From positions 25,192,981-25,256,980 of the forward strand of contig OX579640.1 of NCBI GenBank assembly GCA_951230915.1: a DNA stretch of 64,000 nt, in the 5' to 3' direction. Under the pieces are notes generated by a model that searched no databases, was not told the origin of the DNA, and saw only the letters and a list, made by a program, of their open reading frames with translations. This DNA is from Antitrichia curtipendula (taxonomy: Eukaryota; Streptophyta; Bryopsida; Hypnales; Leucodontaceae). Of the stretch, positions 25,086-61,991 are shown in pieces. Each line of letters starts with the position of its first letter. Position 1 is the stretch's first letter. Position numbers and translations under genes: made by a program.

Positions 25086-26450
25086 TTTGTACTCTTACAA
25101 ATCACACACCTCCTGGCTAAAAAATCAAGCCACAAGGGACGATACTCCACGGGGTCCCACCTCACTTTTTCCCTCAGTTTTACTCAGTTAGGAGCTAGTT
25201 TAGGAGACACTGGAGTAGGGAAAAAAAGACATTTAGTTAGGAAACTTAGAGTAGAAGAACCTAGTTACAACGCTAGTGAGGAACCCAAAGAGAGAAGCCT
25301 AGCATAACCCAATTAGGAAGTCGGAGTCTCCAAGTCCACCTGCACACAAAGAAGTCTCACTCTCACCAACAAAACCATCCACTCCACACACAATGAAGGA
25401 AGATTAGAGAGAAAAAGAGTGAAATAGGAGAAAGGGGGGGAGAGATGATAAATAGTGACCTAGATTAGGCTAGGTGGGTTTAGAAAAGGAAATCTTGAGA
25501 ATTCATAGCGACCATTAGGAGAAGGATTAGGATGACACAAAGACAAGGTTGTGTAAGAGAGTAGGAGAGACATTAACACCTCCTTGGGGTTCGAATCTAT
25601 AGTGTAAGACGTCCATAAAAGAGTAGGTAGAATAGTACTAGTGTAAAAGAGAGGAAGGGAAAGAAAAAAGAAAGAGAAAGGGAGAGGAAAGGAAAGAAGA
25701 AGTTGGATCACATGAGTGTACTAATTGTCTAAAGAATAAGCGATGAGCTTGGGAGAGATTCCCACGACCAAAGGACCACCATGGAGTATGGAGATGTGCA
25801 CCCAGATGCGGACGAGCGTATTTCCGACACCGGTAGTGATGAGTTGAGTTCTTGAATCAATACTTGGTGTTTCCTCCTTATTAGCGTTGATTTCCTTAAT
25901 TAGCCCTTTCCACGCGAATAGTAAACCGGAATAAAGAATTAGAGTTAGTTTTAGGAGTAAAAATTTAGAGGTAGTTTTAGAAGTAAAAATTTAGAGTTAA
26001 TTTTAGGGGGGGGAATGCTGGTATGCGAGCGTGGAGCGTGGAGCGTAGAGCGGGGAGAGGGGATTGGTGAGTAGTGAGCAGGGATTCTATAATTTTGGTG
26101 AATAACTTTTGAAAAAGTAGATGACAGTAATCGAAGAAGTAGATGAAAAAGTGGATGGAAAAGTGGATGAAAAGGTGGATTAAAAAAATGGATGAAAAAA
26201 TGGATGAAAAAATGGATGAGAAAGTGAATGAAAAAGTGGTTTAAAAAAGTGGATGAAATAGTAGATGAAAATGGTGGATGACAAAATAGATGAAAACGGT
26301 AGATGAAAACAGTCGATGAAAATGGTGGATGAAAAAGTAGATGAAAACGGTAGACGAAAATGGTGGATGAAAAGGGGAATGGAAAACATGATTAATAACA
26401 TGATGAAAATAGTAGTTGAATAGAGCGAATTTAAAAAATCCCTCCAAAAA
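25086..26450. repeat. Repeat-rich non-coding stretch with gatgaaaa minisatellite
   Basis: No gene is visible. At 25930-26010 are tandem phrases of 'gtaaaaatttagagttagtttta' type. At 26020-26060 are 'gcgtggagcgtggagcgtaga' type repeats, and at 26100-26400 many diverged copies of a 12-bp 'gtggatgaaaaa' unit. The same three blocks occur in reverse-complement form and order at about 50430-51120, so this is one end of a dispersed element family, seen here as an inverted partner of the 51-kb copy. Confidence 0.6.
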
Positions 26451-26469
26451 TTGAGTTCATGAATTATAT

Positions 26470-27085
26470 GATATTACATACTCCATGAAGGCAGGGCAAC
26501 CCTCCTTCTCATAATGGGGCCGCTAGTACAGCCTGCCTTGCCAACTTAGTTGGACTGACACAGATAACTCCAGGCACCGCTTCAGCCATGCAGCATGATA
26601 CAAAGCATTCGGAAATAGCTTTTCTGTGTACCCAATGGCTTATCACTTTTTCGAGGTGAAGCGGCTTAATCCGAAGAGGATTAAGGTATTGGCGGTTATT
26701 CAGGGATTGGGGGAGCTGCAGTAGCTCTCCAGAAGGTTGGGATCAATCTCGACGTGAAGGTGAGCGTGGAGATTGAAGAGGGAGCCCGTCGTTGCTTCCA
26801 GACTTGGTGGTCCATAACGAATTAAGAAGGCTATCTTGATCTGTACTATCACAATGTGAGACAATTAACAACACATGTCTTTAGTAGTATCGTACAAAAG
26901 TATCATGGCTTTGATTTCATTGTTGGTGGGAGGCCATGCAACAACTTCACTAGGAACAACCGTCACACGCGCATATGACTTGACGGTGAGCATTCTACTA
27001 TATTTTGTGAGTTCCTATGGATTGTTGCGATTGTTTGTGAGCTCACCAGTAAGTAATCGGAGAATCAACGGTGACAGTACATGAA
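26470..27085 (+). pseudogene. DRM-type (permuted) cytosine-5 DNA methyltransferase relic, intronless
   Basis: Three consecutive frame pieces match the plant DRM order, in which motifs IX-X precede motif I. Nt about 26597-26698 reads YKAFGNSFSVYPMAYHFF then VKRLNPKRIKVLAVI (compare the 'LGNSF...VAYH....NVLSLF' region). After a frameshift near 26700 it reads YSGIGGAAVALQKVG, SVEIEEGARR and FQTWWSITN, then TAA where the family has Gln-type sequence. In the next frame, from about 26890, it reads YHGFDFIVGGRPCNNFTRNN, which holds the catalytic Pro-Cys motif (nt about 26933-26938), then LDGEHSTIFCEFLWIV after a TGA. DRM enzymes carry out RNA-directed de novo DNA methylation. This copy has at least one frameshift and three stops and lacks N-terminal UBA and C-terminal parts. 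It shows no introns over this region, which suggests a retrocopy or a mobile-element cargo gene. Confidence 0.75.
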
Positions 27086-27089
27086 CATG

Positions 27090-27894
27090 GATAGGCAAGA
27101 AGGTTGATGTAATTAAACAACTATAAAGTATTGCTATTACCAGCAATGACATTCTACAATATTTTTGATTTAGAGTTGGAAATTGGTGTTTAGAGGTGAG
27201 AGTGAAGAAAATGGTGCATCTTGATGTATGATCCTGCTTTGGATAGTTAGTGAGGCTCAGTACATCTGCTTGTTAAGATGCAGAATAAGAAGACCTCAGT
27301 GCTGTCGATTTCTCTACCCTCCCGCGCAAGGGCCATTACATTTCGCGATTGTCCAATCTCACATTGCGATCAATTGCCACTGCGGTGCATAAATTAGCTA
27401 TGGCGAGATCTTGTAAAAAAATGCCCAGCTACGATGTGACTACTAAAGATCCCTCCCGGTATGGAGAAGGGGCTTTGAAATGCAAATTCCAGGTATAGGA
27501 AGATGGAAGTGATTACTAAGCACTGTCGTCTCTTCTCTTGCCAAAATTATTCTTGCCAAGATAGTATAAAGAAGTAGTCGGGTAGACCCCTGTTGGGAGT
27601 GACATGTTTTAAAGACAATCTATCATCTTGCTGAACAATCCTCAAAAATTTGACTTCATTCTAGTATATATTCTGGCATTGGAGTACTTATTTGAACATG
27701 TCTCGTCCAATCATACGTAAACACATACATACATCATCGGCTATTTGAAAGCACAAGACAATTTATGAAGATATAAAATATACAATGTGTGGCGCCAAAA
27801 TAAGTAGATAATAGTAGAAAACATCATAGTAATATAATAAATCAAATCCAACAATAGAAGGCGTTAAAAAGGCTATCAAAAATAAAACGGATAG
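27090..27894. other. Intergenic, no gene seen
   Basis: No protein-like frame. The stretch includes the likely 3' untranslated region of the minus-strand gene ending at 27895. No polyadenylation signal could be fixed among many AT-rich candidates. Confidence 0.5.
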
Positions 27895-30800
27895 CTAAAA
27901 CGCTGACATAGAGCTACCCTCACTATCAGAAGATTGAACATCAGACTCAACTGCATGTTCATCTACAAACTGTAGAATGAGAGGATTCACGGATCGACCT
28001 CTCGAAGTAGGCTGTGGGTCATGTGCAACATAATCTCGGGATAAAGCTACTGCATACGGAGGGAGAACAAAGGGTTTAGGTGGGCTCTGGAAAAATAGTG
28101 GATTTGCAAAAAAAGGTACATCTCGGGAGGAACTCAATTCCTGGACTTGCCTGCACAAACCAATGAACAAAATATTAGAGTACTACACCTTATGAGAAAT
28201 CAGTATGTCTGAATTACTGAGCTCGGTCATCGACTTACTTACTAAATCGGAGTGTCTTCTGAACCTTCTGGATGATAACTTCCTTGTCCTCCTCAATTCC
28301 AAGGTCAGGCGGTGACCTTGGAATCTCCGCCGCAAGAACCACCGATTTCCGGAGTATTGGAGCTATAAGGGCCTCGAAGATGCTCACATCTTCCTCAAAA
28401 GCTAGAATATGGCGACACGTCGCACGGCATGCTTGGATGCTGGATCCTGTAGAACAAGAAATTAGACAATTAAAGTGGCATTGAGTATGTAAAGATCGAC
28501 TTTGAATATGTAATGAAATTAAAATAACAAACCTGTTGCCGCTGTGCAGTCAACTACAGCATCCCTTGGTGCAGTCATTGCCTCAATGAGCATCTGCATA
28601 AACTCACATCCCTTTTCGCGCGGGCCACGCCATGGCACGTCGCCGTTCATCGTGACATCTTCCTTGAAAACCAGATTGCGGAGGATGTCGTCCTTAGCGA
28701 GGTTAACACCCACCTTATCTTGGGACGGGACAAATTGAAAGGGAAAATCCCTTAGTGTCTTTGGCCCGGATTTCCGCGCAAGTAGCGAGACAGAAAACCT
28801 CTGAGTTTGCAATTCCAACGAAGTCAATGTCAAGGAATGTGAAGTGGAACTCATACAAATGAAGACAACTGAATGTAAAACTATAGAGAATTACCGTCTT
28901 TTTCGGATCTGCGACGGATGTCAAGTGAAGATGGTTTGTGCCAAAATATGTCTCCAATATACGGAAATTGTATTCCTGGCAGCATCCAAGAAGGTGGCTT
29001 CGATGTGCTGAAGACGACGCTGGGTAAATTACGAAGAGGGTACCATTATCGTGAAGGTACTGAGTCGCGAAGTCAAAGATAGGTACCAAGTAGTCAGATT
29101 TGAATTCGTTCCACTTTGGTACTGGAGCAGGTGCAGATGAGAGAGTAGGGACGTGGAGTCCCTCGAGCACATCCACTATCATAAGGTCAACAGCTGACTC
29201 GGATCCCATATTTCCGTCAAAGGCGCGGTCCTTGTCACTGGAATGCTGCAATATGCATAGAATTGAGAAGTTAGTTAGTACAATATATCTATTATGAAGT
29301 TAATGAAACCACATCTGCATTATATAGGGAGTTCTGTATGAAGTGAGTTTCATGTGAAACATTCTCAAATCTAAGTCTAATCCAGCAATTTGAAGAGAAG
29401 ACTTACCATGGCTAAGAAGGCCTCAATGTCCTCGAAGGACTTCGTTCCCATCTCAAGACCCTTGAGTGCCATGTTCAATATACACTCATCGATATCAGAC
29501 CCCAGAATCATAGTCTTAGTCGACGGCGTCATCCCCTGCGCCATGTGCTCCTGAGTGAGGAAGAATCCGGATGATGAAAGGTTGACGTCTGCTGCACTTG
29601 TAGCTGGTTCCGGAGCTTGGGTGATGTCCTTCTCTAGCCGATGCTTCTTCGTCCCCTTCCCTTCCCCTTTCTCAATTTGTTGCTTCTTCTTGTTCTCTTC
29701 GCCCTTCTTCTTGTTTAGCTCAGACTTCTTCTTGGCCTCCTCCAACTTGTCCACCTTTTTCTTGTTGGCGAGCTCTCGCTTTGCGATGGCCTTGGCCCTC
29801 GCCTCTGGTTCCAGTCCAGCAAATTCGTCAAATTCCGCATCGGTCACCGTGGCCCCCTTCAGCGTCTGAAAGAGGGCCTCTTCTTCTGGTGGTGTAACGC
29901 CGAAGTTACACTCAAGATACCACGGACAGGTCTGCAAGTGAGGACTTGTCCACTTCTGTAGTTGAGTGGTGGAGAACATGCAATCCGCTGACGACCGGTC
30001 GAGCCATGTAGTGAGAAACGGTGGTAAGTCCTCTTTCCTAATAGCCTTCTTGCCATACAACTTGAACTTGAAGTATCTATACACATCAGAAGTCGCTTTC
30101 GTCAGTTTGAATAATTATAAGAAACAAGAGAGTATTGAACATCAATATGTAACTGATAATAGATAACAAGAGGTCATAAAATCATGATGAGGAAAACGAA
30201 GTGGTCCAGAAGAGGACGACTACCATAATAATCCACAAACTGAGGCAATGTCTTACAAGCAACATAATCTAGAACATGGACACAATAGAAATTAGTTAAT
30301 ATATATTAAAATGATAGTACTACCTGTAAATCAATCTCTTCACCGTCAAGCTAGTTCCCCCGTACAACGCAAACTTGTCCGATTTCTTGAAGGCATCCTT
30401 TCCCTTGAAGACCCCTGTGTAGGCTTGGTCCCACAGCTTCATCCGCCACGTCTCCAAATACTCTACTATTGTCTCGGGCTCACTCGGGGCGGTCATGTCA
30501 ATTGGAATGCTGTCAGCGTGGGTGATGGTCTCAAACATCTCCGCAGCTGCCTCCTCTAGCTATAAAATACATAGTTCAGCCAGACCTTGTGTCAAATAGA
30601 GTAATCTACTTCAGAATGAATAACAATTAACTAAGTGAAAGGAGAACACATGCGGCCATTTCATATTCAATCAAGTAAGGATCCTACCCCAGCGTAATAG
30701 GCAGCCTTGGCCAGAAAAATACCCACCTTTTCCTCATTCACTGGACGTGGAGGAAAGCGACGAGCTTCTCTCGTATGAGAACTCGCGTTCATCCATCTAA

Positions 30801-32830
30801 GCCATTTGACCTTGTGTCTTGGTTCGACGGCTGTAGTCGCAATCAGCTGCAGCTTCTCCAGTGTCAACTTAGGAACAACATTGTGGCTCCAGTGTCTCTC
30901 AATCTGCAGGAGTCCGAAACTTAGAAATAATTCATGCGTAAAATCGATAAATGTCAAAATCAGTCACTATGTATTAAAACGCTACAAACCTCTTTGAGCC
31001 AGCCCGGGGTAAGCTCTGGATTTGCGACCGCGACAATCTTTGAAAGCTTCTTGTAATGTCGATCGGTTGACCCTTTAATAGCCGCTCTCATTGTGGCAGC
31101 GACATCCTCCCTGGTCACTTCCACTTCTTGATTTTCATCTCTGAGCTTTTGAATTGCGGCATCAGCCGCAGAGGAGATCTCTTGCTGAGAGGCAAAAGTC
31201 GTCACACCAATAATGAATATAAGGATTATAACAAGTACACTCGATATGATTACACCGTGCATTTATCAAACAATGGATTGCATAAAAAATGATATATTGC
31301 ATACCTTAAAGATGAACCTAGTGAATATATGCAGGGGCATGGTATACCAGCTTGTCTGCGTGTGCATCTTACAGGTCTTCACATCCTCCTCAGTCAACAA
31401 CTCCTGAAACTTATCAAGCTTCATAACCCCGTATTTCTGAACGCGATAGAGGGTATGCACAAGGTTTGTCTTGACGTGGGAGTTCTCTGTATGCCTGTCC
31501 ATCCAAGTAACAACGACTTGTGAATGACAAAGTAACCATGTCAAATGCTATGAACTATACCATGAAATCAATGCGATTACTCAAGTAAATAATAATATGA
31601 ACTTACATGTTAATGTCGTGCATTGCTTGCATTGCCACCCCAATGCATTGTCTTGTATCAAGGACAATGGAGTCCACACAAAAATGCCAAGAATGCTCTT
31701 GACTGTGCAGCCTCTCAATATGGTTCATCCAGGCTATGCGTCTGTGATTTCTGTCACAGACAAAGAACTTATAATCTACTAGATGCTTCAGAGATGGAAT
31801 GGACTGCAACTGAGTATTGAAGGTGTCGTTTACCGAGTTCCAAATGGGACCCCACACACGCTTCTCCTCATCATTGAAAATCTCCGTATTTCCGTTCTCG
31901 TCAGAGTATGACACATAGAACACTCGAGCTCCTTCATCATAACCCCAAGAGAACTGGTTGTCTAAAAGGGTCACGTCGCAAGTAAGCGTAGGACAAACCA
32001 TTGGCATAGGCACCATCCTGCATAATGGAATTTTCATGCGTGAGTGTCCATCCGACGTCACCTTTAAACTGTTGATGACGGCCACCGTGTCGAATGCCTG
32101 CACACGCCTAATGTCTTCCTCAAGAAAACCGGGTTCTACACCCGGAATGTAGTCCTCCGCAGGATCATCCTCTACGTCATCGTGAATGACCTCATGAGCA
32201 GCTGTGTCGACATAGAGGCGATGAACACCTTCCCGCTGATCCTGCACCTTCACGATTCAAATAGGCAAATAAGGGACAGCAAATGAAGTCATGATGAACG
32301 GATTCTCAAACATGTAGAATGAATGCAATGCAATCATAGATTCATAGTGGGAGCCCTGTAGGCTGCAACCGGGGAAGGCACTTTATAATGTAACCTAGCT
32401 AGTCATATTCAGCAACAGGCCTCTGAAGGAAGACAGAACATCCCGCAACAGAATATGAGGACGTCGTCGTCAATGATCGGTCCAGAGTCAGCATTGTGAG
32501 AGCAAATACAATAGTCGACGCTATGCTGCGGATCTGCAATTTTCATATCCCACGACCCTAGTGATGTATAGCTAGACTCCTGCGGTGACATTGGTTCCTC
32601 AGCATAGAGATGATTCAGTCCATCATCAAGTTCACGGATGAGGTCTGTGAGGTCTCCTACCATCTCCCCCCGCGCTTGACCTTGATGAATATCTTCATCC
32701 ACGACAAGAATCGGGTCGAGCACAGGAACAACGACTTCGGCACGAACGAGGCCATGGTCCGGAACATCTGGAACCTGATTGGCCATTGTCTCCACTTCGT
32801 GAGCTGAAGCTTCCACCCCGTTTGTACTCT
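27895..32830 (-). CDS. ParB-like domain fused to permuted DNA-methylase-like domain, 11 exons
   Basis: Exons in transcript order: about 32830-32409 (donor unsure), 32241-31607, 31494-31305, 31184-30990, 30903-30688, 30559-30324, 30076-29407, 29245-28895, 28800-28533, 28446-28239, 28150-27895. I saw no internal stop or frameshift; the product is about 1,200 residues. Exon 2 has a ParB/sulfiredoxin-like fold pattern: IPLCRMVPMPMVCP, VTLLDNQFSWGYDEGARVFY, and the box FVCDRNHRRIAWM, in which the usual DGNHR glycine is lost. Middle exons are helical. Exon 7 has a Lys/Glu coiled coil. Exons 8-10 match the N4/N6 (beta-class, permuted) DNA methylase order: DLMIVDVLEG where the catalytic DPPY stands, WNEFKSDYLVPIFDFATQYL, DNGTLFVIYP, then at the C-end VVDCTAATGSSIQACR and HILAFEED, equal to the SAM loop and acidic residue. 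ParB-methylase fusions are known in bacteria and phages. With DPPY replaced, methylation is doubtful. The start is uncertain; an ATG lies near 32784. Confidence 0.75.
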
Positions 32831-33020
32831 CAACCTACTCAGCCAATATTCTCGATTAGAAATACGTCTTGAATGCCTATAGACATTTGAAGTACATATC
32901 AAGAAATGGACACAACCGCAAACAAGCAAGGCACCCAGTCTTGGTCATCTGTGTTCAAACTCGTTGTCATCCGATTTAATATATATGTAGACATGGATGC
33001 ATAAGTCCTCACAGTGAATA
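32831..33020. other. Upstream region between ParB-methylase gene and satellite
   Basis: A short gap between the first recovered exon and the satellite. An AG acceptor-like site just before 32830 on the minus strand suggests a 5' untranslated exon further upstream, possibly within the array. No TATA box could be chosen with confidence. Confidence 0.35.
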
Positions 33021-36000
33021 CCCCCTCTCGGTACCAAAATGGTCCGGGACACCCGGTCACGTATGCTCGGGGGCCGTAAAGACTCTGAGACTGACTGAGA
33101 TTGGTGAGCCTTGGCTGAACGGGACAATATCGAAACACCACACCGGCAAGATCGCAGAGCCAAAAATAAAATACAAATCTAGGATCTCCCAATACCAGTC
33201 CCAAGGACTGGATTCAAAGCGAGTGGGGGAAACATGAAATGTCACGACAAGAGGTCAAAAACTGAGCTCACAGGGGCCCCTGTCCCACCCCTTCCCCGCA
33301 CCGAGAGGGCCCTCGACATCCAGTGAGGTATGCTCGGGGTACGCAAACACGCTAAGTATGACTGCGATCGGAGAGCCTTGGCTGAACGAGACAAACAACA
33401 GACCATCAACAACGCGGAGCCAAAAATAAAATACAAATCAAGAATCTCCTTGAACCAATCTCAAGGACTAGTTCCAAAGCGAGTAGGGAAAACACGAAAT
33501 GCCACGACAACAGGTCAAAAACAGAGCTCACCCGGGCCCCTGTCCCACCCCTTCCCCGCACCGAGAGGGCCCTCGACACCCAGTGAGGTATGCTCGGGGT
33601 ACGCAAACACGCTAAGTATGACTGCGATCGGAGAGCCTTGGCTGAACGCGATAAAGTCGAAAAAACAGACCATCAACAACGCGGAGCCACAAAAAAATAA
33701 AAATCTGCAATCTCCCAGAACTAGTCCCAAGGACTGAATCCGAAATGTCACGACAAGAGGTCAAAAATTGAGCTCACCGGGGCCCCTGTCCCACCCCTTC
33801 CCCGCACCAACAGGGCCCTCGACACCCAGTGAGGTATGCTCGGGGTACGCAAACACGCTGAGTATGACTTAGATCAGTGACCCTAACTGAACGGGCCAAT
33901 ATGGAAACAATAGACCATCAACAACGCGGAGCCAAAAAAAAATATAAATCTGGAATCTCCTAGAACTAGTCTCAAGGACAGGATCCAAAGCGAGTGGGGA
34001 AAACACGAAATGCCACGACAAAGGGACAAAAACTGATCTCACCGAGGCCCTATCCCACCCCTTCCCCGCACCGAGAGGGCCCTCGACACCAAGTGAGGTA
34101 TGCTCGGGGTACGCAAACACGCTCAGTATGACTGAGATCTGTGACCCAAGCTAAATGGGACAATATTCAAACAACAGACCATCAACAACGCGGAGCCAAA
34201 AATAAAATAAAAATCTGGAATCTCGCAGAACCAGTCCCAAGCACTGGATTCAAAGCGAGTAGGGAAACACGAGATGCCACAACAAGAGGTCAAAAACTGA
34301 GCTCACCGGGGCCCTGTTCCACCCCTTCCCTACACCGAGAGGGCCCTCGACCCCCAGTGAGGTATGCCCGGGGTACGCAAACACGTTGAATATGACTGAG
34401 ATCAGTGACCCAAGCTGAACGGCACAATATTCAAACAACAGACCATCAACAACGCGGAGCCAAAAATAAAATAAAAATCTGGAATCTCCCAGGACCAGTC
34501 CCAAGGACTGGATTCAAAGCGAGTGGGGAGAACACGAGATGCCACAACAAGAGGTCAAAAACTGAGCTCACCGGGGCCCTGTCCCACCCCTTCCCTGCAC
34601 CGAGAGGGCCCTCGACCCTCCGTGAGGTATGCTCGGGGTACGCAAACACGCTGAGTATGACTGAGATCAGTAACCCAAGCTGAACGTGACAATATGGAAA
34701 CAACAGACTATCAACAACGAAGCCAAAAAAAAAATAAAAGTCAAGTATCTCCTAGAACCATTCTCAACGACCTGATCCAAAGCGAGTGGGAAGAACACGA
34801 AATGCCACGACAAGAGGTCGAAAACTGAGCTCACCGAGGCCCTGTCCCACCCCTTCCCCGCACCGAGAGGGCCCTCGACCGCGAGTGAGGTATGCTCGGG
34901 GTACGCAAACACGCTGAGTATGACTGAGATCAGTGACCCAAGCTGAACGTGACAATATGGAAACAACAGACCATGAACAACTCGGAGCCAAAAATAAAAT
35001 ACAAATCAAGAATCTCTTAGAACCAATCTCAAGGACTGGATCCAAAGCGACTGGGGAAAATACGAAATGCCACGTCAAGAGGTCAAAAACTGAGCTCACC
35101 GGGGCCCCTGTCCCACCTCTTCCCCGCACCGAGAGGGCCCTTGACCCCCAGTGAGGTATGCTCGGGGTACGCAAACACGCTGAGTATGACTGAGATCAGT
35201 GACCCAAGCTGAACGGCACAATATTCAAACAACAGACCATCAACAACGCGGAGCCAAAAATAAAATACAAATCAAGAATCTCCCTGAACTAGTCCCAAGG
35301 ACTGGATTCAAAGCGAGTGGGGAAAACACGAGATGCCACAACAAGAGGTCAAAAACTGAGCTCATCGGGGCCTTGTCCCACCCCTTCCCCGCACCGAGAG
35401 GGCCCTCGACCCTCCGTGAGGTATGCTCGGGGTACGCAAACACGCTGAGTATGACTGAGATCAGTGACCCAAGCTGAACGGCACAATATTCAAACAACAG
35501 ACCATCAACAATGCGGAGCCAAAAATAAAATACAAATCTGGAATCTCCCAGAACCAGTCCCAAGGACTGGATTCAAAGCGAGTGGGGAGAACACGAGATG
35601 CCACAACAAGAGGTCAAAAACTGAGCTCACCGTGGCCCTGTCCCACCCCTTCCCTGCACCGAGAGGGCCCTCGACCCTCCGTGAGGTATGCTCGGGGTAC
35701 GCAAACACGCTGAGTATGACTGAGATTAGTGAGCCTTGGCTGAACGCGACAATATGGAAACAACAGACCACGAAGATCACGGAGCCAAAAATAAAATACA
35801 AATCTGGGATCTCCCAATACTTGTCCCAAGGATTGGATTTGAAATGTCACGACTAGAGGTCAAAAACTGAGCTCACCGGGGCCCCTGTCCAACCCCTTCC
35901 CCGCACCGAGAGGGCCCTCGACCCCCAATGAGGTATGCTCGGGGTACGCAAACACGCTGAGTATGACTGAGATCAGTGACCCAAGCTGAACGGCACAATA

Positions 36001-37282
36001 TTCAAACAACAGACCATCAACAACGCGGAGCCAAAAATAAAATACAAATCAAGAATCTCTCAGAACCAGTCCCAAGGACTGGATTCAAAGCAAGTGGGGA
36101 AAACACGAGATGCCACAACAAGAGGTCAAAAACTGAGCTCACCGGGGCCCTGTCCCACCCCTTCCCTGCACCGAGAGGGCCCTCGACCCTCCGTGAGGTA
36201 TGCCCGGGGTACGCAAACACGCTGAGTATGACTGAGATCAGTGACCCAAGCTGAACGGCACAATATTCATACAACAGACCATCAACAACGCGGAGCCAAA
36301 AATAAAATACAAATCAAGAATCTCTCAGAACCAGTCCCAAGGACTGGATTCAAAGCAAGTGGGGAAAACACGAGATGCCACAACAAGAGGTCAAAAACTG
36401 AGCTCACCGGGGCCCTGTCCCACCCCTTCCCTGCACCGAGAGGGCCCTCGACCCTCCGTGAGGTATGCCCGGGGTACGCAAACACGCTGAGTATGACTGA
36501 GATCAGTGACCCAAGCTGAACGGCACAGTATTCAAACAACAGACCATCAACAACTCGGAGCCAAAAATAAAATACAAATCAAGAATCTCTCAGAACCAGT
36601 CCCAAGGACTAGATTCAAAGCGAGTGGGGAGAACACGAAGTGCCACAACAAAAGGTCAAAAACTGAGCTCACCGTGGCCCTGTCCCCCCTCTTCCCCGCA
36701 CCGAGAGGGCCCTCGACCCCCAATGAGGTATGCTCGGGGTACGCAAACACGCTGAGTATGACTGAGATCAGTGACCCAAGCTGAACGGCACAATATTCAA
36801 ACAACAGACCATCAACAACGCGGAGCCAAAAATAAAATACAAATCAAGAATCTCCCTGAACTAGTCCCAAGGACTGGATTCAAAGCGAGTGGGGAAAACA
36901 CGAGATGCCACAACAAGAGGTCAAAAACTGAGCTCACCGGGGCCCTGTCCCACCCCTTCCCTGCACCGAGAGGGCCCTCGACTCTCCGTGAGGTATGCTC
37001 GGGGTACGCAAACACGCTGAGTATGACTGAGATTAGTGAGCCTTGGCTGAACGCGACAATATGGAAACAACAGACCACGAAGATCGCGGAGCCAATAATA
37101 AAATACAAATCTGGGATCTCCCAAAACTTGTCCCAAGGATTGGATTTGAAATGTCACGACTAGAGGTCAAAAACTGAGCTCACCGGGGCCCCTGTCCCAC
37201 CCCTTCCCCGCACCGAGAGGGCCCTCGACCCCCAATGAGGTATGCTCGGGGTACGCAAACACGCTGAGTATGACTGAGATCA

Positions 37283-39371
37283 GTGACCCAAGCTGAACGG
37301 CACTATATTCAAACAACAGACCATCAACAATTCGGAGCCAAAAATAAAATACAAATCAAGAATCTCTCAGAACCAGTCCCAAGGACTAGATTCAAAGCGA
37401 GTGGGGAAAACACGAAATGCCACAACAAAAGGTCAAAAACTGAGCTCACCGGGGCCCTGTCCTATCCCTCTCCCGCACCGAGAGGGCCCTCGACCCTCCG
37501 TGAGGTATACTCGGGGTACGCAAACGCGCTGAGTATGACTGAGATTAGTGAGCCTTGGCTGAACGCGACAATATGGAAACAACAGACCATGCAGATCGCG
37601 GAGCCAATTATAAAATACAAATAATAATCTGGGATCTCCCAATACTTGTCCCAAGGACTGGATTTGAAATGTCACGACTAGAGGTCAAAAACTGAGCTCA
37701 CCGGGGCCCCTGTCCAACCCCTTCCCCGCACCGAGAGGGCCCTCGACCCCCAATGAGGTATGCTCGAGGTACGCAAACACGCTGAGTATGACTAAGATCA
37801 GTGACCCAAGCTGAACGGCACAATATTCAAACAACAGGCCATCAACAACTCGGAGCCAAAAATAAAATACAAATCAAGAATCTCTCAGAACCAGTCCCAA
37901 GGACTAGATTCAAAGCGAGTGGGGAGAACACGACATGCCATGTCAAGAGGTCAAAAACTGAGCTCACCGGGGCCCTATCCCACCCCTTCCCCGCACCGAG
38001 AGGGCCCTCGACCCCCAGTGAGGTATACTCGGGGTACGCAAACACGCTGAGTATGACTGAGATCAGTGACCCAAGCTGAACGGCACAATATTCAAACAAC
38101 AGACCATCAACAACGCGGAGCCAAAAATAAAATAAAAGTCAAGAATCTCTTAGAACCAATCTGAAGGACTAGATCCAAAGCGTGTGGGGAAAACACGAGA
38201 TGCCACAACAAGAGGTCAAAAACTGAGCTCACCGGGGCCTTGTCCCACCCCTTCCCTGCACCGAGAGGGCCCTCAACCCTCCGTCAGATATGCTTGGGGT
38301 TCGCAAACACGCTGAGTATGACTGAGATCAGTGACCCAAGCTGAACGGCACAATATTCAAACAACAGACCATCAACAACGCGGAGCCACAAATAAAATAC
38401 AAATCAAGAATCTCCCTGAACTAGCCCCAAGGACTGGATTCAAAGCGAGTGGGGAAAACACGAGATGCCACAACAAGAGGTCAAAAACTGAGCTCACCGG
38501 GGCCTTGTCCCACCCCTTCCCCGCACCGAGAGGGCCCTCGATCCCCAGTGAGGTATGCCCGGGGTACGCAAACACGTTGAGTATGACTGAGATCAGTGAC
38601 CCAAGCTGAACGGCACAATATTCAAACAACAGACCATCAACAACGCGGTGCCAAAAATAAAATACAAATCAAGAATCTCCCTGAACTAGCCCCAAGGACT
38701 GGATTCAAAGCGAGTGGGGAAAACACGAGATGCCACAACAAGAGGTCAAAAACTGAGCTCACCGTGGCCCTGTCCCCCCTCTTCCCCGCACCGAGAGGGC
38801 CCTCGACCCCCAGTGAGGTATGCTCGGGGTACGCAAACACGCTGAGTATGACTGAGATCAGTGACCCAAGCTGAACGGCACAATATTCAAACAACAGACC
38901 ATCAACAACGCGGAGCCACAAATAAAATACAAATCAAGAATCTCCCTGAACTAGTCCCAAGGACTGGATTCAAAGCGAGTGGGGAAAACACGAGATGCCA
39001 CAACAAGAGGTCAAAAACTGAGCTCACCGGGGCCTTGTCCCACCCCTTCCCCGCACCGAAAGGGCCCTCGACCCTCCGTGAGGTATGCTCGGGGTACGCA
39101 AACACGCTGAGTATGACTGAGATCAGTGACCCAAGTTGAACGGCACAATATTCAAACAACGGACCACGAAGATCGCGGAGCCAAAAATAAAATACAAATC
39201 TGGGATCTCCCAATACTTGTCCCAAGGACTGGATTTGAAATGTCACGACTAGAGGTCAGAAACTGAGCTCACCGGGGCCCCTGTCCCACCCCTTCCCCGC
39301 ACCGAGAGGGCCCTCGATCCTCCGTGAGGTATGCTCGGGGTACGCAAACACGCTGAGTATGACTGAGATCA
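37283..39371. repeat. Higher-order repeat block A (2089 bp)
   Basis: Within the satellite, monomer starts from here are spaced 518, 530, 265, 265 and 511 bp. The block includes a short monomer with a 6-bp 'aataat' insertion (about 37620) and a monomer pair with 'gatatgcttggggttcgcaa' (about 38286). The same series recurs in block B with the same variants, so several monomers were copied as a unit. Confidence 0.85.
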
Positions 39372-41725
39372 GTGACCCAAGCTGAACGGCACAATATTCA
39401 AACAACAGACCATCAACAATTCGGAGCCAAAAATAAAATACAAATCAAGAATCTCTCAGAACCAGTCCCAAGGACTAGATTCAAAGCGAGTGGGGAAAAC
39501 ACGAGATGCCACAACAAGAGGTCAGAAACTGAGCTCACCGGGGCCTTGTCCCACCCCTTCCCTGCACCGAGAGGGCCCTCGACCCTCCGTGAGGTATGCT
39601 CGGGGTACGCAAACGCGCTGAGTATGACTGAGATTAGTGAGCCTTGGCTGAACGCGACAATATGGAAACAACAGACCATGCAGATCGCGGAGCCAATTAT
39701 AAAATACAAATAATAATCTGGGATCTCCCAATACTTGTCCCAAGGACTGGATTTGAAATGTCACGACTAGAGGTCAAAAACTGAGCTCACCGGGGCCCCT
39801 GTCCAACCCCTTCCCCGCACCGAGAGGGCCCTCGACCCCCAATGAGGTATGCTCGAGGTACGCAAACACGCTGAGTATGACTAAGATCAGTGACCCAAGC
39901 TGAACGGCACAATATTCAAACAACAGGCCATCAACAACTCGGAGCCAAAAATAAAATACAAATCAAGAATCTCTCAGAACCAGTCCCAAGGACTAGATTC
40001 AAAGCGAGTGGGGAGAACACGACATGCCACGTCAAGAGGTCAAAAACTGAGCTCACCGGGGCCCTATCCCACCCCTTCCCCGCACCGAGAGGGCCCTCGA
40101 CCCCCAGTGAGGTATACTCGGGGTACGCAAACACGCTGAGTATGACTGAGATCAGTGACCCAAGCTGAACGGCACAATATTCAAACAACAGACCATCAAC
40201 AACGCGGAGCCAAAAATAAAATAAAAGTCAAGAATCTCTTAGAACCAATCTGAAGGACTAGACCCAAAGCGTGTGGGGAAAATACAAAATGCGACGACAA
40301 GAGGTCAGAAACTGAGCTCACCGGGGCCTTGTCCCACCCCTTCCCCGCACCGAGAGGGCCCTCAACCCTCCGTCAGATATGCTTGGGGTTCGCAAACACG
40401 CTGAGTATGACTGAGATCAGTGACCCAAGCTGAACGGCACAATATTCAAACAACAGACCATCAACAACGCGGAGCCACAAATAAAATACAAATCAAGAAC
40501 CTCCCTGAACTAGTCCCAAGGACTGGATTCAAAGCGAGTGGGGAAAACACGAGATGCCACAACAAGAGGTCAAAAACTGAGCTCACCGGGGCCTTGTCCC
40601 ACCCCTTCCCTGCACCGAGAGGGCCCTCGACCCTCCGTGAGGTATGCTCAGGGTACGCAAACACGCTGAGTATGACTGAGATCAGTGACCCAAGCTGAAC
40701 GGCACAATATTCAAACAACAGACCATCAACAACGCGGAGCCACAAATAAAATACAAATCAAGAATCTCCCTGAACTAGCCCCAAGGACTGGATTCAAAGC
40801 GAGTGGGGAAAACACGAGATGCCACAACAAGAGGTCAAAAACTGAGCTCACCGGGGCCTTGTCCCACCCCTTCCCCGCACCGAGAGGGCCCTCGATCCCC
40901 AGTGAGGTATGCCCGGGGTACGCAAACACGCTGAGTATGACTGAGATCAGTGACCCAAGCTGAACGGCACAATATTCAAACAACAGACCATCAACAACGC
41001 GGTGCCACAAATAAAATACAAATCAAGAACCTCCCTGAACTAGTCCCAAGGACTGGATTCAAAGCGAGTGGGGAAAACACGAGATGCCACAACAAGAGGT
41101 CAAAAACTGAGCTCACCGTGGCCCTGTCCCCCCTCTTCCCCGCACCGAGAGGGCCCTCGACCCCCAGTGAGGTATGCTCGGGGTACGCAAACACGCTGAG
41201 TATGACTGAGATCAGTGACCCAAGCTGAACGGCACAATATTCAAACAACAGACCATCAACAACGCGGAGCCACAAATAAAATACAAATCAAGAATCTCCC
41301 TGAACTAGTCCCAAGGACTGGATTCAAAGCGAGTGGGGAAAACACGAGATGCCACAACAAGAGGTCAAAAACTGAGCTCACCGGGGCCTTGTCCCACCCC
41401 TTCCCCGCACCGAGAGGGCCCTCGACCCTCCGTGAGGTATGCTCGGGGTACGCAAACACGCTGAGTATGACTGAGATCAGTGACCCAAGTTGAACGGCAC
41501 AATATTCAAACAACAGACCACGAAGATCGCGGAGCCAAAAATAAAATACAAATCTGGGATCTCCCAATACTTGTCCCAAGGACTGGATTTGAAATGTCAC
41601 GACTAGAGGTCAAAAACTGAGCTCACCGGGGTCCCTGTCCCACCCCTTCCCCGCACCGAGAGGGCCCTCGACCCTCCGTGAGGTATGCTCGGGGTACGCA
41701 AACACGCTGAGTATGACTGAGATCA
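39372..41725. repeat. Higher-order repeat block B (2354 bp, one monomer more than A)
   Basis: Monomer starts are spaced 518, 530, 265, 265, 265 and 511 bp: block A plus one 265-bp monomer. The insertion-bearing short monomer (about 39709) and the 'gatatgcttggggttcgcaa' variant (about 40376) recur exactly 2089-2090 bp after those in block A. The translation of the monomer at 39890 equals that at 37801. Confidence 0.85.
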
Positions 41726-44165
41726 GTGACCCAAGCTGAACGGCACAATATTCAAACAACAGACCATCAACAATTCGGAGCCAAAAATAAAATACAAATC
41801 AAGAATCTCTCAGAACCAGTCCCAAGGACTAGATTCAAAGCGAGTGGGGAAAACACGAGATGCCACAACAAGAGGTCAAAAACTGAGCTCACCGGGGCCT
41901 TGTCCCACCCCTTCCCTGCACCGAGAGGGCCCTCGACCCTCCGTGAGGTATGCTCGGGGTACGCAAACACGCTGAGTATGACTGAGATCAGTGACCCAAG
42001 CTGAACGGCACAATATTCAAACAACAGACCATCAACAACGCGGAGCCACAAATAAAATACAAATCAAGAATCTCCCTGAACTAGCCCCAAGGACTGGATT
42101 CAAAGCGAGTGGGGAAAACACGAGATGCCACAACAAGAGGTCAAAAACTGAGCTCACCGGGGCCTTGTCCCACCCCTTCCCCGCACCGAGACGGCCCTCG
42201 ATCCCCAGTGAGGTATGCCCGGGGTACGCAAAGACGCTGAGTATGACTGAGATCAGTGACCCAAGCTGAACGACACAATATTCAAACAACAGACCATCAA
42301 CAACGCGGAGCCCCAAATAAAATAAAAGTCAAGAATCTCTTAGAACCAATCTCAAGGACTGGATCCAAAGCGAGTGGGGAAAATACGAAATGCGACGACA
42401 AGAGGTCAGAAACTGAGCTCACCGGGGCCTTGTTCCACCCCTTCCCCGCACCGAGAGGGCCCTCGACCCTCCGTGAGGTATGCTCGGGGTACGCAAACAC
42501 GCTGAGTATGACTGAGATCAGTGACCCAAGCTGAACGGCACAATATTCAAACAACAGACCATCAACAACGCGGTGCCAAAAATAAAATACAAATCAAGAA
42601 CCTCCCTGAACTAGTCCCAAGGACTGGATTCAAAGCAAGTGGGGAGAACACGAAATGCCACAACAAGAGGTCAAAAACTGAGCTCACCGGGGCCTTGTCC
42701 CACCCCTTCCCCGCACCGAGAGGGCCCTCGACCCTCCGTGAGGTATGCTCGGGGTACGCAAACACGCTGAGTATGACTGAGATCAGTGACCCAAGCTGAA
42801 CGGCACAATATTCAAACAACAGACCATCAACAATTCGGAGCCAAAAATAAAATACAAATCAAGAATCTCTCAGAACCAGTCCCAAGGACTAGATTCAAAG
42901 CAAGTGGGGAGAACACGAAATGCCACAACAAAAGGTCAATAACTGAGCTCACCAGGGCCCTGTCCCACCCCTTCCCTGCACCGAGAGGGCCCTCGACCCT
43001 CCGTGAGGTATGCCCGGGGTACGCAAAGACGCTGAGTATGACTGAGATCAGTGACCCAAGCTGAACGACACAATATTCAAACAACAGACCATCAACAACG
43101 CGGAGCCCCAAATAAAATAAAAGTCAAGAATCTCTTAGAACCAATCTCAAGGACTGGATCCAAAGCGAGTGGGGAAAATACGAAATGCGACGACAAGAGG
43201 TCAGAAACTGAGCTCACCGGGGCCTTGTTCCACCCCTTCCCCGCACCGAGAGGGCCCTCGACCCTCCGTGAGGTATGCTCGGGGTACGCAAACACGCTGA
43301 GTATGACTGAGATCAGTGACCCAAGCTGAACGGCACAATATTCAAACAACAGACCATCAACAACTCGGAGCCAAAAATAAAATACAAATCAAGAATCTCT
43401 CAGAACCAGTCCCAAGGACTGGATTCAAAGCGAGTGGGGAAAACACGAGATGCCACAACAAGAGGTCAAAAACTGAGCTCACCGGGGCCTTGTCCCACCC
43501 CTTCCCCGCACCGAGAGGGCCCTCGACCCTCCGTGAGGTATGCTCGGGGTACGCAAACACGCTGAGTATGACTGAGATCAGTGACCCAAGCTGAACGGCA
43601 CAATATTCAAACAACAGACCATCAACAATGCGGAGCCAAAAATAAAATACAAATCAGGAATCTCTCAGAACCAGTCCCAAGGACTGGATTCAAAGCGAGT
43701 GGGGAGAACACGAGATGCCACAACAAGAGGTCAGAAACTGAGTTCACCGTGGCCCTGTCCCCCCTCTTTCCCGCACCGAGAGGGCCCTCGACCTCCAGTG
43801 AGGTATGCTCGGGGTACGCAAACACGCTGAGTATGACTGAGATCAGTGACGCAAGCTGAACGGCACAATATTCCAACAACAGACCAGGAAGATCGCGGAA
43901 CCAAAAATAAAATACAAATCTGGGATCTTCCAATACTTGTCCCAAGGACTGGATTTGAAATGTCACGACTAGAGGTCAAAAACTGAGCTCACTGGGGCTC
44001 CTGTCCCACCCCTTCCCTGCACCGAGAGGGCCCTCGACACCCAGTGAGGTATGCTTGGGGTACGCAAATATGCTGAGTATGACTGAGATCGTTGAGCCTT
44101 GGCTGAACATGACAATATTGAAACAACAGACCATCAAGATCGCGGAGCCAAAAATAAAATACGGA

Positions 44166-44620
44166 CCCGTGCCCAATCTACGAGAGTACGAGAAGGGGAA
44201 ACTCAAAACTTTCGGAACCTGAAGGGAAAGCTGTGCTCACCGGGTCCTTGGTCTGCCACAGTTCCTGCACCGTGAGGGTCGTCGACACCGAGTTAAGTAT
44301 GCTCGAGATCCACAAGAAGTGGAGACTGACTTAGATTCGCTTTCCTAGGGCAAGATGTGAGTAAGCCGAAACAACAAATCTCAGCTACAGCGGAGACCAA
44401 AATAAAAAGCTAAACCCGGGGATGTTCTCGCGCTCGAGCTCGCACATCCGGGAGACTGACAATGGGGGGAAACCCTATTGAATAAGAGGCGACGAGTAAT
44501 TTCAGCTCACGAGTTCACTTGCCACCCCCCGTCACCGCACCGAGAGGGTCCTTGTCACCCCTCAGGGTATGCTTAGGGCCACCAACGGGTGAGACTAACT
44601 GAGCTGGTCTTGCTACAGAC
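44166..44620. repeat. Decayed edge of the satellite
   Basis: Two strongly diverged monomers. Still recognisable are 'tgctcaccgggtcc', 'ctgcaccgtgagggtcgtcg', 'agtatgctcgag', then 'caccgcaccgagagggtcc' and 'cagggtatgcttaggg'. Spacing remains near 265-280 bp. Homology fades at about 44620. Confidence 0.75.
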
Positions 44621-45611
44621 GCTGAATGCGGATAGCGCTCTGGCGATCTCAATCCGGAATGCACACTTCCAAACTCGTGCATTACCGAACTCTCTGCCAC
44701 TACCGCAAATAGGCTGGTTCTATAGATTGTCTTGTTGTGCCCTTATCCTGGCTTCCCTCTCGGTACCGAGAAGCGCCAAAGCCTCAAACGCGTATTTACA
44801 GTTTTGATGACAATATTACAACATACAGGAGGCTCGTAATATGAGAGCTTTGTGACCGACGCTAGGCAGGGTATAACGGCACTATACCTCAATTGTTGCT
44901 GCGACAGAGCCTCCATCGTTTTGATGGCAACGCGATCTCAGCGTGCGTCCTTGATGTTCCATGTTCACCTGACAATGAGAGAAAATCGTGAATACTTCAG
45001 CAAAGACGGCAGTGGCCCACGAGAGCATTAGTTATAACCGAGGAATTGTAGGGACAAAGCAAGAGCATCATCTGGAGTTGAATGTGGGTCAGAATCGTAC
45101 AAGAGACGGAGAACTAAGATGAAGTAGTTGAAGATATGCGCACCCTACACTCTCCCGTGTTTTTGGTGTTCGGATAACGGAAGGCACTAAGGGCTCGTCA
45201 GCTTCGCGTTAGTAGTTGACGGCATCAAAATAACGCCCGACAACATATGAATTAGGGTTCCTTGCAGTTTGATCCCGTTGCGTCCCCGTCAGTATACTTC
45301 TTTCTATTTGATACTTCGTGAAATACTGCATCGCACTTGCATCGTAATTAGGACACTGAAGTCAAGCATCGTAATCATATATCACATCATAAACCGTTTC
45401 AATGGAATTTACTTAATATAATATTTAGTATGATTCTTGGTGTGCCTATTCTTTTATTTAAATGTTACATGTATTATTATTGGATTTATAGAATCATGCT
45501 AATCTTGAGACTGGTTGCAACTTTATTAGGAAATTGACAACATTACCGGTACTCACATATCTTGTCATGAATTGGATTTAAGATATTTAAATTACACCAA
45601 TTATAGTTATG
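44621..45611. other. Intergenic, no gene seen
   Basis: About 1 kb without a protein-like frame. Composition shifts from GC-balanced next to the satellite to AT-rich near 45400. Nothing further could be named. Confidence 0.5.
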
Positions 45612-45926
45612 GGCAATTTCGTTAAAATGGCGGTATTCCGTTAGTTTGGCACTTTTAACTGTTCAGACCGTGCACATTGAAATGGTCTGAAATCTACATC
45701 TATTTTAGATTTATGACATCTATATCATTCCTAGATATCTGAAATCTATAAAAGTTATAGATTTTTCAAAATTTTCAGTCTAAAATCTATAACATTCATA
45801 GACTTCTGAAATCTACAACAGTCCTAGATCTTTGAAATCTATCTTTGTCCTAGATGTTGCTTCTATGGTTTAGAGTGGGCACTCTGAAAATGGCACATGG
45901 AATACCGCCATTTTAACGAAATTGCC
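45612..45926. mobile_element. Foldback MITE-like element, 28-bp perfect terminal inverted repeats
   Basis: Positions 45612-45639 are the exact reverse complement of 45899-45926 (starts ggcaatttcgttaaaatgg). The 315-bp element has no ORF. Inside are several diverged copies of 'gaaatctataa...cctagat'. Flanking bases look like an imperfect duplication: tatagttatg before and aatagttcta after, 7 of 10 equal. A 9-10 bp duplication would suit a MULE-derived MITE, and a MULE relic starts only about 200 bp downstream, but the superfamily is not proven. Confidence 0.7.
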
Positions 45927-46149
45927 AATAGTTCTAGTTCTAGCGTTGATTTCTTCCATTGTATCCTATATGCAAAATTGATGACTCTGGTACAACGTCT
46001 AATTTTATTACTCATGTTCAGCACCCGGAACCGTGTACACCCTATACTCACTGACACTGACATGCCAGCGCACGGGGTCTAGCCACAATTTTGTTCAGAG
46101 GACTCATTGGTTTGCCTTTGATGAATGCCAAATACTGTCATCTGCATTT

Positions 46150-49147
46150 CGCAATTAGCCTTCAAGATGGCTCTGCCATGGTAGATTCGTCTAGGCGAGT
46201 GGCGATTCAGCATATCATTAAACTTAGAAGGGTACAGCGAGTTATTTTGTCCTTGTCGGGAGTTTTACTATACTTCTTCCGACGTCTAGAATTAATCTCC
46301 TACTACACCGTCTGGCAAAGAGATTTTTGAGCCGGGGTCGGGAATTCTCATTCACACTGTTGGCCAACTTTTTGCATTAGAAGATGGCACCAACATCTGG
46401 CATCTTAAGCCAGGGAAGTACAGAGCGTATGGAGTTCAATCGCTACTGGTAGCAGAGGATGAAGTCGGTTGCACCCCTCGCTTGTCTTCGACGTCGTCTT
46501 TTCAAACGCCATCTTTGCTTGTGAAGGTAGAGTCCCATGTAGACAGTGTCACAATTTTGAATTCTGATTCTGATCGCAATTCAGAAGAGCATGTTTTGGG
46601 CTTACAGACTCCGTTTTCTGTGTCAACTTTACCTACTCTTCCTAGCCTTCCCCGTTGTTCGTCGTCAAACTCATGCGCAAATAGTGGATCTATTATTGAT
46701 TGTCTGCGTCAGTTACGGATTCAAAAGGGGTGCCGGAACGTGCTGTCCAAGATTGATTATGAGAGTATAAGTATTCAGAAAGTTATTACGTTGCCTCCAT
46801 GATTCAATGGAAATATCATATTTGAATTGCCGGCATTAGATACGGGATGCTCTATATCACAAGCCAAGCAGATGTCTGGAATGGATAAACGTTACGACGG
46901 GCACGTCTGGTCGAAGACAATGACAACTAATATCAATAATCGGATGGGCTTGACGTTTCGCACATTTATATGCTTTGGGCATCTTAGATGCAACAATGCA
47001 TGTTGCGAATTTCTCAATCGTGTTAATCGCATTGAAGTTGTGAATGAGTTAGAATGGGAGGGACTGTCTCCATCTGTCTTGAATGTTGGCGATTTGCATC
47101 CGCAAGGATCATCACTTGTCTGCAAAATCTGCAAACAACCTCCATCTTGTATTGCAAAAGGTCTTGTTAAGGCGTACTATGTCGTGGGAAACCTTGGGAT
47201 GACTCGGGCGTTCGTACACCTGGGAGTTCACGAACATCCCGTTAAGGATGGAGAACTGCGAGACATCCAAGAAAGAACTAGAGTCCTTATCAGTGAACAG
47301 ATGGAGAAAACGCCAATGGCAACAAATTCATCTATCGTGTTGGAGGCTACGAAAGAACTCCTTGGCGAATTGATCCTCAGCCAAGACAAAGTGAATCCGA
47401 AGCAGCTCAACTTTGATGACCTTGTCCCTGTGCTGGACAAATGCAAGTATTTCAGTTCCCCGAGTATCCGGAACGAGGTTACGTCGTTCAAGAGTCTCAG
47501 GAGATTGGATGTCATTGATAGCATTACAAAGTTAAGAGGTTCAAGCACTTGGGCTTTCATTCAACAGAGCAAGTTTCCCGGACAAGGAACAGAGGCGGAT
47601 AAAGTTTTTCTCTTCAAAATGTCAGAAGTCGGTCCGGGAAGTGGAGTAGATTTAGTAAAGATAATGCAAGAAGGTGGTGACCTTCAGGACTCATGGATGA
47701 TGTTCGATCACGTGAAAAGGGTGAAGGGGTGGACCACGATGGCATGCCATGTTTATGATGCCACGTACTGCCGTGTCATGACTATCGCAATTTGCGACAT
47801 GCAATCTGAAGATTCAACCGCCCAGATTCTATTTTGGAGGAATTTAAATGCCATCCTCGCAAGACATGGTGTGAAGGACACCCAGTTCAAGGGATTCATG
47901 GCGGACAGCGCTCAAGAAAATTGGAATGTTGTTAGGACAATTTATGGTTCAGGAGACAGTACCGTGGCAATGGAAAATCGTGAAAGAACATGCCTTTTTC
48001 ATTGGACGCAGTCCATGGAAAAGCATACAAAGGCTGACATCCGCGGTGACTTGCAAGATCAGCATCGCATGTTATGCAAGCAATACAAAAACGCCACATC
48101 CCCAGATGAATCTGAAACAAGGTACCTTGCCATCAGGGCTTGGTGGTTGTCATCCGGTGCCACATGCGAAGAAGGAAGACGTCGACTGGACTTGTGGTTG
48201 TCATTCTGGCATTTCCGCTATCACTAGTGGGGTAGCTTTTTGCAACTCGTATGCTCACTTATCCCATTTATGTCCTTTATAAAACGGGGATCATTTCATG
48301 GCCACTTAGAGAGTAATCTGCTTTTGCAAAGGCGTGCTTTGCTGATCAAGCAATTACAAAGAAGAAGTGCACTACTCGAATAGTTCAGAACAACAAACCT
48401 ACAGCAGCGCCAACTTATACAGGTATGATGGTCAATTATAGGAAAAATTGTAATGATCGAATGGATTTCTTTTTTTGCAATGACGACATCGAACGGTGCG
48501 TGAAGGGATATCGACGGAAGTGGGTGTTAACTGTACCACCTGTTCCAAGTATTTGGCCTGTTGAAATTGGAACAAAACTTTCATCAGCTGAGATTTTAGC
48601 ACTCGAAGCGGCGGGATTTCAGCTTCCAGAACGACAGGTCATTTCACCACGACGACTCTTTGGTGGAGATGCTACAATCGGATTGGTGCGAGATTACCCA
48701 ATTCCGTCTAGTCCAGATGAGTATTCCAAAACTCGGGCGGGTAAGCTCATTAGACGGAATCCAAAGGCCCCAACAACAAAGCATCAAAACAATTGTGCTT
48801 CGTCATTGACTCTTGAAGCATGCATTGAAAATGTAACCATGGTCCCTCATCCTGGATTCGGGTGCATTGTTTCAATAATTTCTGGTGTCGAGCCTTGTAC
48901 AGAACAGTACATGCTAACAATTTCATCATTTCCAGACTGTACCTATCCTTATTTCAAGGAGATGAAACTGAAATGTTTAGGAAAGCGGGGAACATGGGCT
49001 AACTGTAAACATTTGTATTTCCTTTTTACAATTGTTTGCAACTTACAGTGCAAATCAGATGGCTTCATTCATGTCGCAAGCTTTAGCTTTAATGAGGTAA
49101 AGGCAATTCTTCTCTGGGGGATACTCAGCTATGTTCGTTCTAGTTAG
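46150..49147 (+). pseudogene. GCM-like zinc finger/MULE transposase, copy A, internally deleted
   Basis: Collinear with copy B (60149-56292, minus). The N-terminus is decayed (ISLQDGSAMVDSS at about 46150). From about 46330 the frame runs to TAG at 48225-48227, with one TGA at 46800-46802 where copy B has Glu. Domains in order: a GCM/WRKY-like zinc finger at about 46880-47250 (FICFGHLRCNNACCEF, VCKICKQPPSC, HLGVHEHPVK, compare GVHDHP of GCM factors); MULE DDE core at about 47740-48020 (YDATYCRVMTIAICD, GFMADSAQENWN, then ERTCLFHW with the Cys-His pair); and after a deletion of about 200 codons (near 48240-48350) a C-terminal region with a SWIM-like finger (FPDC...WANCKHLYF, about 48930-49020) ending at 49147. 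MULE transposases cut and paste DNA by DDE chemistry. Two stops and the deletion make this copy inactive. Confidence 0.75.
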
Positions 49148-50040
49148 TTTATGTGCAGTAAGACAGCAGTACTCTTTGTATGTACTGCACTTTTTTATAA
49201 AATTGAATAGTGAGACTACAAGGGCCACTACTTCCGTACAGGATTTGTCATTGTCTTTCATTGCAAATGTGCTTATACTGTCATGAATGACTGCTTTACG
49301 TCTCAAAGTAGGTAATGAATTGACATCAGACGTATTTCTACTTTCATTTACTAGGATCTTATCCCTTTCTCAAACCTTGAAACCGATGTTTGCGGAACAA
49401 GTGTTGCTATACAAAACAAGAATGAATTTTGTAGAGAATTGGCCTCACAAATTCACAGGGTCTTCAATGACTTTAAAATCCCAATGGTATTAAATAGAGA
49501 TGAGGTCTATTATTATAAAGATGCCTAAATCCACCCTTCCGTCCACCACGGTTATAAGAGGCCCTATTACCATTGTCGTAGGCACCATATGATTGAAGTT
49601 TCCATTTATGCACCATAACTAACAATGACGCTAAATATATTATATTTTTAGTATAGCTAAACTTCTTCTAAGTCCTCACCCTAAACATCCCTTTCACATC
49701 ACTACATCAATTTATGCATGAATTATCTTCAAATGAATCACTTGTTTATCTAATTGTTTCCCCCCCATATTTTGCATAGATTTCTTATACTCCCATGTAT
49801 TTTGTCATCAAATTTAGTGCAATCTTAAACTGCAATGCCAATGAATGTTGCATCGAGTGTCATCCAAGTTTTTTTGCCGCATTTATCCATTTGTTTTATT
49901 TCTATCATTGAATTTGTTCCACCGTTTCCACCCCATTTACCAGCTTCTTACGTACATACTAACCCTAAACTTGCTTGCACCTATATGTTTGAACCTCTGT
50001 CACCTAGTTTTCCATCTATGATGACTTAGTCATGTTATCC
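49148..50040. other. Intergenic, no gene seen
   Basis: No protein-like frame and no clear terminal repeat for copy A of the MULE. The last 8 bases (50033-50040, tgttatcc) are the left target-site duplication of the adjacent hAT-like element. Confidence 0.5.
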
Positions 50041-50409: not shown

Positions 50410-50429
50410 TGTTATCCGGAGTCATCCAT

Positions 50430-61734: not shown

Positions 61735-61776
61735 CCTTCCAAAAGCAACACCGACGTCGGCGTTGCTTTTGGAAGG
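61735..61776. repeat. 42-bp near-perfect palindrome
   Basis: Begins CCTTCCAAAAGCAAC and ends with its reverse complement GTTGCTTTTGGAAGG around a centre CGACGTCG. Only one base pair of the palindrome fails. Its right half overlaps the left arm of the larger hairpin, and its left half repeats the arm end, so CTTCCAAAAGC-type sequence occurs three times. Confidence 0.85.
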
Positions 61777-61944: not shown

Positions 61945-61991
61945 GATTTTTTTGGGAATGTTTTAACCTAACTTTCAGCATCTGGTTTAGG

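Follow-up and report, generated by a model that had tools for sequence, protein, structure and literature searches.

The ParB-like/methylase-like gene in the 64-kb stretch of DNA analysed here (the window) can be read with good confidence as an accessory (cargo) gene carried by a large DNA transposon, which most likely belongs to the Mutator/IS256 type. That the carrier is a mobile DNA transposon is nearly certain, and its assignment to the Mutator/IS256 type is highly probable. The gene and a transposase gene form a pair that is dispersed through the genome. Whether the predicted protein acts on its own element is evenly balanced in our assessment.

The gene and its carrier

Exons 2 to 11 of the gene lie on the reverse strand (27895..32241) and comprise ten exons, separated by nine introns with GT..AG ends and matching phase, which together give an unbroken frame of 1,074 residues. 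The exons are located at 32241-31607, 31494-31305, 31184-30990, 30903-30688 and 30559-30324 (exons 2 to 6), and at 30076-29407, 29245-28895, 28800-28533, 28446-28239 and 28150-27895 (exons 7 to 11). Splice-aware alignment reproduced this model exactly and also divided each of five further copies (L031, L032, L033, L043 and L044) into ten exons, while the copy in a second element (element 2) has eight. Exon lengths are mostly equal between the copies, with L044 placing the border of exons 8 and 9 differently, and the protein identity of L043 and L044 to the window copy is 61% and 57%, respectively. An exon structure common to such divergent copies would not arise by chance. The original prediction had proposed about 11 exons; ten of them are joined at GT-AG sites, and an exon 1, which it extended to 32830, is plausible in the region 32242..32834 of the reverse strand, where an open frame (32834-32409) contains an ATG near 32786 and the donor site is tentative. 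All peptides quoted in that prediction were recovered at their predicted place and strand.

The transposase (ORF1; 46317..48248, forward strand) lies head to head with the ParB-like/methylase gene, from which a tandem array separates it. It contains two in-frame stops, and alignment did not recover its first 50 residues. The transposase gene probably continues with a C-terminal exon at 48317..49144 (forward strand), which resembles, by eye only, an element 2 ORF at 57764-56295. The predicted fold of the 474 amino acid long open part (46803-48224) has the ISCth4 transposase as its best structural match, with TM-scores of 0.22-0.28, and Foldseek returned no match for it at E ≤ 0.001. Pfam gave no transposase family at E ≤ 1 for six pieces, three from each of elements 1 and 2, and none of the 120 listed homologues carries a precomputed Pfam domain. 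Because no described transposase family matched, we use the label Mutator/IS256-like rather than the name of a Pfam family.

The complete transposon (element 1) spans 24,977 bp (26009..50985), as delimited by its inverted repeats, by the left-hand point beyond which L031 and L032 are no longer homologous, and by its 9-bp flanks. The left terminal inverted repeat (26009..26086, forward strand), with the core GGTATGCGAGCGTGGAGCG, and the right one (50909..50985, reverse strand) share an inverted repeat of 70 nt with 86% matches (arms 26017-26086 and 50909-50978). The core, with at most three mismatches, also marks six sister loci on the left (L031, L032, L046, L048, L050 and L053) and four sister elements on the right (L045, L047, L049 and L051), and was not found at the expected right end of a fifth stretch, L052. 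In L031 and L032, which lie on other chromosomes, homology to the window ends near 26010 and the element starts are nearly identical. L033 is without the left end of the element; this copy on contig C9 loses it soon after the gene (at about 7635-7721 of L033), where a short piece of the element is followed by other sequence.

Both ends were found in five elements, the window element and four sisters, and their flanking 9-mers agree at 9/9, 9/9, 8/9, 8/9 and 6/9 positions. In the window, the left target-site duplication ATTTTAGGG (26000..26008) matches the right copy GTTTTAGGG (50986..50994) in eight of nine bases. Target-site duplications of the Mutator/IS256 type are 8-11 bp long, typically 9 bp. 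Plant MULEs are characterized by an IS256-like fold, a WRKY/GCM-like N-terminal region, inverted repeats and a 9-bp target duplication. The present elements share the inverted repeats and the 9-bp duplication with them, may also resemble them in the fold and the N-terminal region of the transposase, and differ from them in that their transposase has no Pfam family match and their second gene is ParB-like/methylase-like. A 26-bp minisatellite resembling TTTTAGGAGTAAAAATTTAGAGTTA is present in the same orientation on both flanks (25928-26007 and 50986-51136); element 1 landed inside it.

The four sister elements are 14.8-15.9 kb long, and the extra length of the window element is mostly due to a tandem array with a 265-bp unit repeated about 40 times (39.8 copies; 33741..44162), which separates the two divergent genes. 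The fetched part of the sister L031 contains 2.5 copies of the unit. Within the array, 88% of the positions match, and some steps measure 246 bp or about 512-518 bp.

Elsewhere in the window, a protein-kinase-like frame is present at 130-999 (forward strand; weak Pfam match, E 9.5e-4, below the cut-off) and an NLI-interacting-factor-like phosphatase frame at 20805-21470 (reverse strand; E 2.7e-12). The segment 2001-20000 is very AT-rich (24-32% GC in 2-kb steps), the adjoining sequence having mostly 40-52% GC, and no tRNA or Rfam match was found anywhere in the 64-kb window.

The methylase-like and ParB-like halves

The C-terminal half of the protein appears to be N6_N4_Mtase-like. The corresponding region (28373..29191 on the reverse strand, introns included) contains the motif IV site DVLEG and the SAM loop DCTAATGSS, and the motif order is as originally claimed, with the catalytic motif first and the SAM loop last, which is the order of beta-class methylases. 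With the PF01555 profile, the whole window protein scores 16.4 bits and the methylase region alone 20.1 bits (E 6.6e-4), both below the curated cut-off of 26.7. With this profile, which had been suggested at the outset, a homologue from the moss Ceratodon purpureus passes the cut-off with 30.4 bits. In a five-member alignment, all five members were reported at a lax limit of E 10, the best with 1.1e-6. The Ceratodon protein is the one relative found with a four-row profile among 7,993 candidates scored (E 5.8e-162, 29% identity, 89% coverage). Among solved structures, the family profile of the methylase region matches the adenine methylase DpnA over 59 positions, with E-values of 9.8e-5 and 1e-4 for its two chains; all four further chains in the list have E ≥ 0.19.

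The half thus resembles bacterial and phage beta-class N6/N4 methylases (PF01555, e.g., DpnA) in motif order and SAM-binding region, but differs from them at the site where they carry DPPY. In the 20 loci read, motif IV is DVPEG in 13 and a close variant in the remainder; DVLEG occurs in the window copy alone, and neither DPPY nor an accepted variant of the type (D/N/S)PP(Y/F/W) was found in any of them. The usual FxGxG is likewise absent from the SAM loop in all 20 loci where this loop was read. The catalytic site is non-canonical in 20/20 loci, and the alteration of its motif speaks for a chemistry that has changed or been lost. One reading of these data is that the C-terminal domain has no catalytic activity and retains DNA binding only, the gene encoding a DNA-binding co-factor of transposition. 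This reading, to which we assign somewhat less than an even chance, agrees with the missing canonical motifs and with the conservation of the altered motif IV, for which the Ceratodon homologue has DTPF, whereas the SAM-binding stretch that still matches DpnA by profile and the retained motif order speak against it. From the motifs, true base methylation by the subfamily of the window gene seems unlikely, and a co-factor that binds DNA is in our view at least as probable as an enzyme that writes base marks.

The N-terminal half is named ParB-like on the basis of its motifs and of a profile comparison in which YbdM-type ParB matched weakly. Its region (31657..32031, reverse strand) contains the boxes IPLCRM..V(R)P and D-x-NHR; the nucleotide-binding box of ParB is of the type G-x-(R/H)R. 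In the 12 loci read, IPLCRM is present in 10, VRP in 9 and NHR in all 12. It is possible, although rather unlikely, that this domain is unrelated to ParB and that the D-x-NHR box arose by chance. Such a chance resemblance would fit the failure of all profile libraries to detect ParB: PF02195, the profile named in the original prediction, had no match in the own genome, ten Pfam scans of family members with partly overlapping member sets found no ParB, NCBIfam gave no ParB match in the region, and a single-sequence profile comparison found none for the N-terminal region. Pfam instead gives its best scores in the region to unrelated families (DUF5113, E 0.0093, in one member; DUF7316, 0.11; DUF4998, 0.18), and the AlphaFold model of this half (pLDDT 37.5, from an alignment of 3 rows) failed and was unusable. 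Comparison by hhalign with a profile of E. coli YbdM and six phage ParB-like proteins gave a probability of only 6%, but the score of 23.4 exceeded 300/300 shuffled controls, albeit narrowly (maximum 22.8), and the DGNHR box aligns in register with IVDGFHR, as do the next strand and the helix after it. In addition, the boxes recur in the Ceratodon and element 2 copies, and the corresponding Ectocarpus domain, compared by description only, is termed ParB-like by its authors (PMC12477816). The originally proposed combination of a ParB-like and an N4/N6-methylase domain in a spliced plant-type gene is well supported for the methylase half and weakly for the ParB half.

Copies, constraint and decay

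The search of the own genome yielded 196 exon matches on ten contigs (C1 to C10), which were merged by hand from the listed rows into at least 41 gene loci, some holding only part of the gene. The transposase has 90 genomic matches. Within 40 kb, a listed transposase accompanies 24 of the at least 41 gene loci and is divergently oriented in 24/24 cases, while 17/41 are without one among the 90 transposase candidates scored. The window itself contains part of element 2, whose gene copy (62267..64000, forward strand; tblastn 28% identity, E 2.6e-34) runs past the window end. This gene model continues in L042 and has two stops and one frameshift. The element 2 transposase (58038..60116, reverse strand), also with two stops, is divergent from the gene. 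Over its extent from 58038 to 64000 and on into L042, element 2 shows the box DGNHRLAAW and the SAM loop DAFASISNS. Two hairpins resembling foldback insertions were noted, one with 90-nt arms of 97% identity (61764-61944) and one with 118-nt arms of 87% identity in an intron of the element 2 gene (63384-63628).

The absence of a visible break, as originally described, holds for exons 2 to 11 of the window copy only, and six of the seven spliced copies contain stops or frameshifts. In L043 the damage is confined to near the C-terminus, and L031 has two stops at an exon junction, as placed by the aligner, beside a frameshift. Compared with subfamily B (L043), silent sites are saturated at a dN of 0.29, which indicates that the lineage has been constrained. 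Among four close copies, three of which are broken, pairwise dN/dS is 0.34-0.66. In the window copy, 20 replacement changes and 9 silent ones are absent from its three closest copies. It differs from these three at conserved sites, with R to C in VRP and P to L in DVPEG; the former is also present in L015. Together, these sequence comparisons point to the pattern of a transposon gene, with constraint while moving and decay after landing.

The original prediction saw a gene kept in a plant nucleus under selection; what was found is a dispersed transposon gene. Domestication, with an old ParB-methylase fusion of bacterial or phage origin now serving the host beside transposon debris, is very improbable: the intact window frame, the homologue annotated in Ceratodon purpureus and the long-term constraint on the protein would suit it, but the matches spread over ten contigs, the divergent transposases, the five copies within elements that have inverted repeats and 9-bp flanks, and the prevalence of broken copies do not. 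For the window copy, it is already largely refuted. A counterpoint to the mobile-element reading is that the transposase of the window element is itself broken. The proposed descent from a bacterial or phage fusion proved untraceable, with no relative confirmed in two viral-contig scans and one prokaryotic scan.

Relation to known elements and possible role

The kind of gene described here is already known from algal transposons. According to a 2025 paper (PMC12477816), the giant DNA transposon Sola1-1_Ec32 of Ectocarpus (21.5 kb) encodes a 1,104 amino acid long protein with ParB-like and N4C/N6A methylase domains on the strand opposite to its Sola1 transposase; similar genes of green and red algae are mentioned, and such proteins are suggested to bind and modify their own element. 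Compared by description only, size and layout agree with the window element, with a ParB-like/methylase protein opposite the transposase. The differences are that Sola1-1_Ec32 has a Sola1 transposase and resides in a brown alga, whereas here the transposase is IS256/Mutator-like, the duplications are 9 bp long and the host is of land-plant type, as its GRAS genes and the Ceratodon homologue indicate. In the literature found, the Mutator/IS256-like carrier, the land-plant-type host, the element borders and the conserved non-canonical motif IV are new; a 2011 review may mention mosses.

Two further systems are comparable. The N4CMT of bdelloid rotifers (PMC8885841) is likewise a bacterial-type PF01555 domain in a eukaryotic nucleus, with introns, but it belongs to the host, has a chromodomain and is reported to be active, whereas the window gene is transposon cargo. 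DNMT-carrying retrotransposons (PMC5890265) also represent the capture of a methyltransferase by a transposable element; their enzymes differ in being C5-cytosine methyltransferases in retrotransposons of dinoflagellates and charophytes.

The bind-and-modify suggestion made for the algal proteins would fit the DNA-binding-type domain, the methylase-type domain and the array between the divergent genes. The ParB-like part would bring the protein to the DNA of its own element, either to the ends or to the array, and the methylase-type domain would mark or shield this DNA, so that the element is recognized as self or escapes silencing. Since the catalytic site is non-canonical, the domain may bind DNA and SAM without ordinary amino-methylation. 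A broader and doubtful proposal is that the ParB-like/methylase cassette is a portable module of unrelated DNA-transposon superfamilies in brown, red and green algae and land plants, placed divergently from the transposase, and that here its rewritten DVPEG site may serve a new way of binding or marking the element's own array.

The view that the window gene was domesticated by the plant is corrected by the present analysis. Such cargo next to a transposase other than the one in Ectocarpus would suggest that one module has been captured repeatedly or exchanged. Should the protein mark or shield the transposon that encodes it, plant mobile elements would carry a bacterial-type epigenetic writer; this could account for unusual base marks at some transposons and would offer a way to study how silencing is survived by giant elements.
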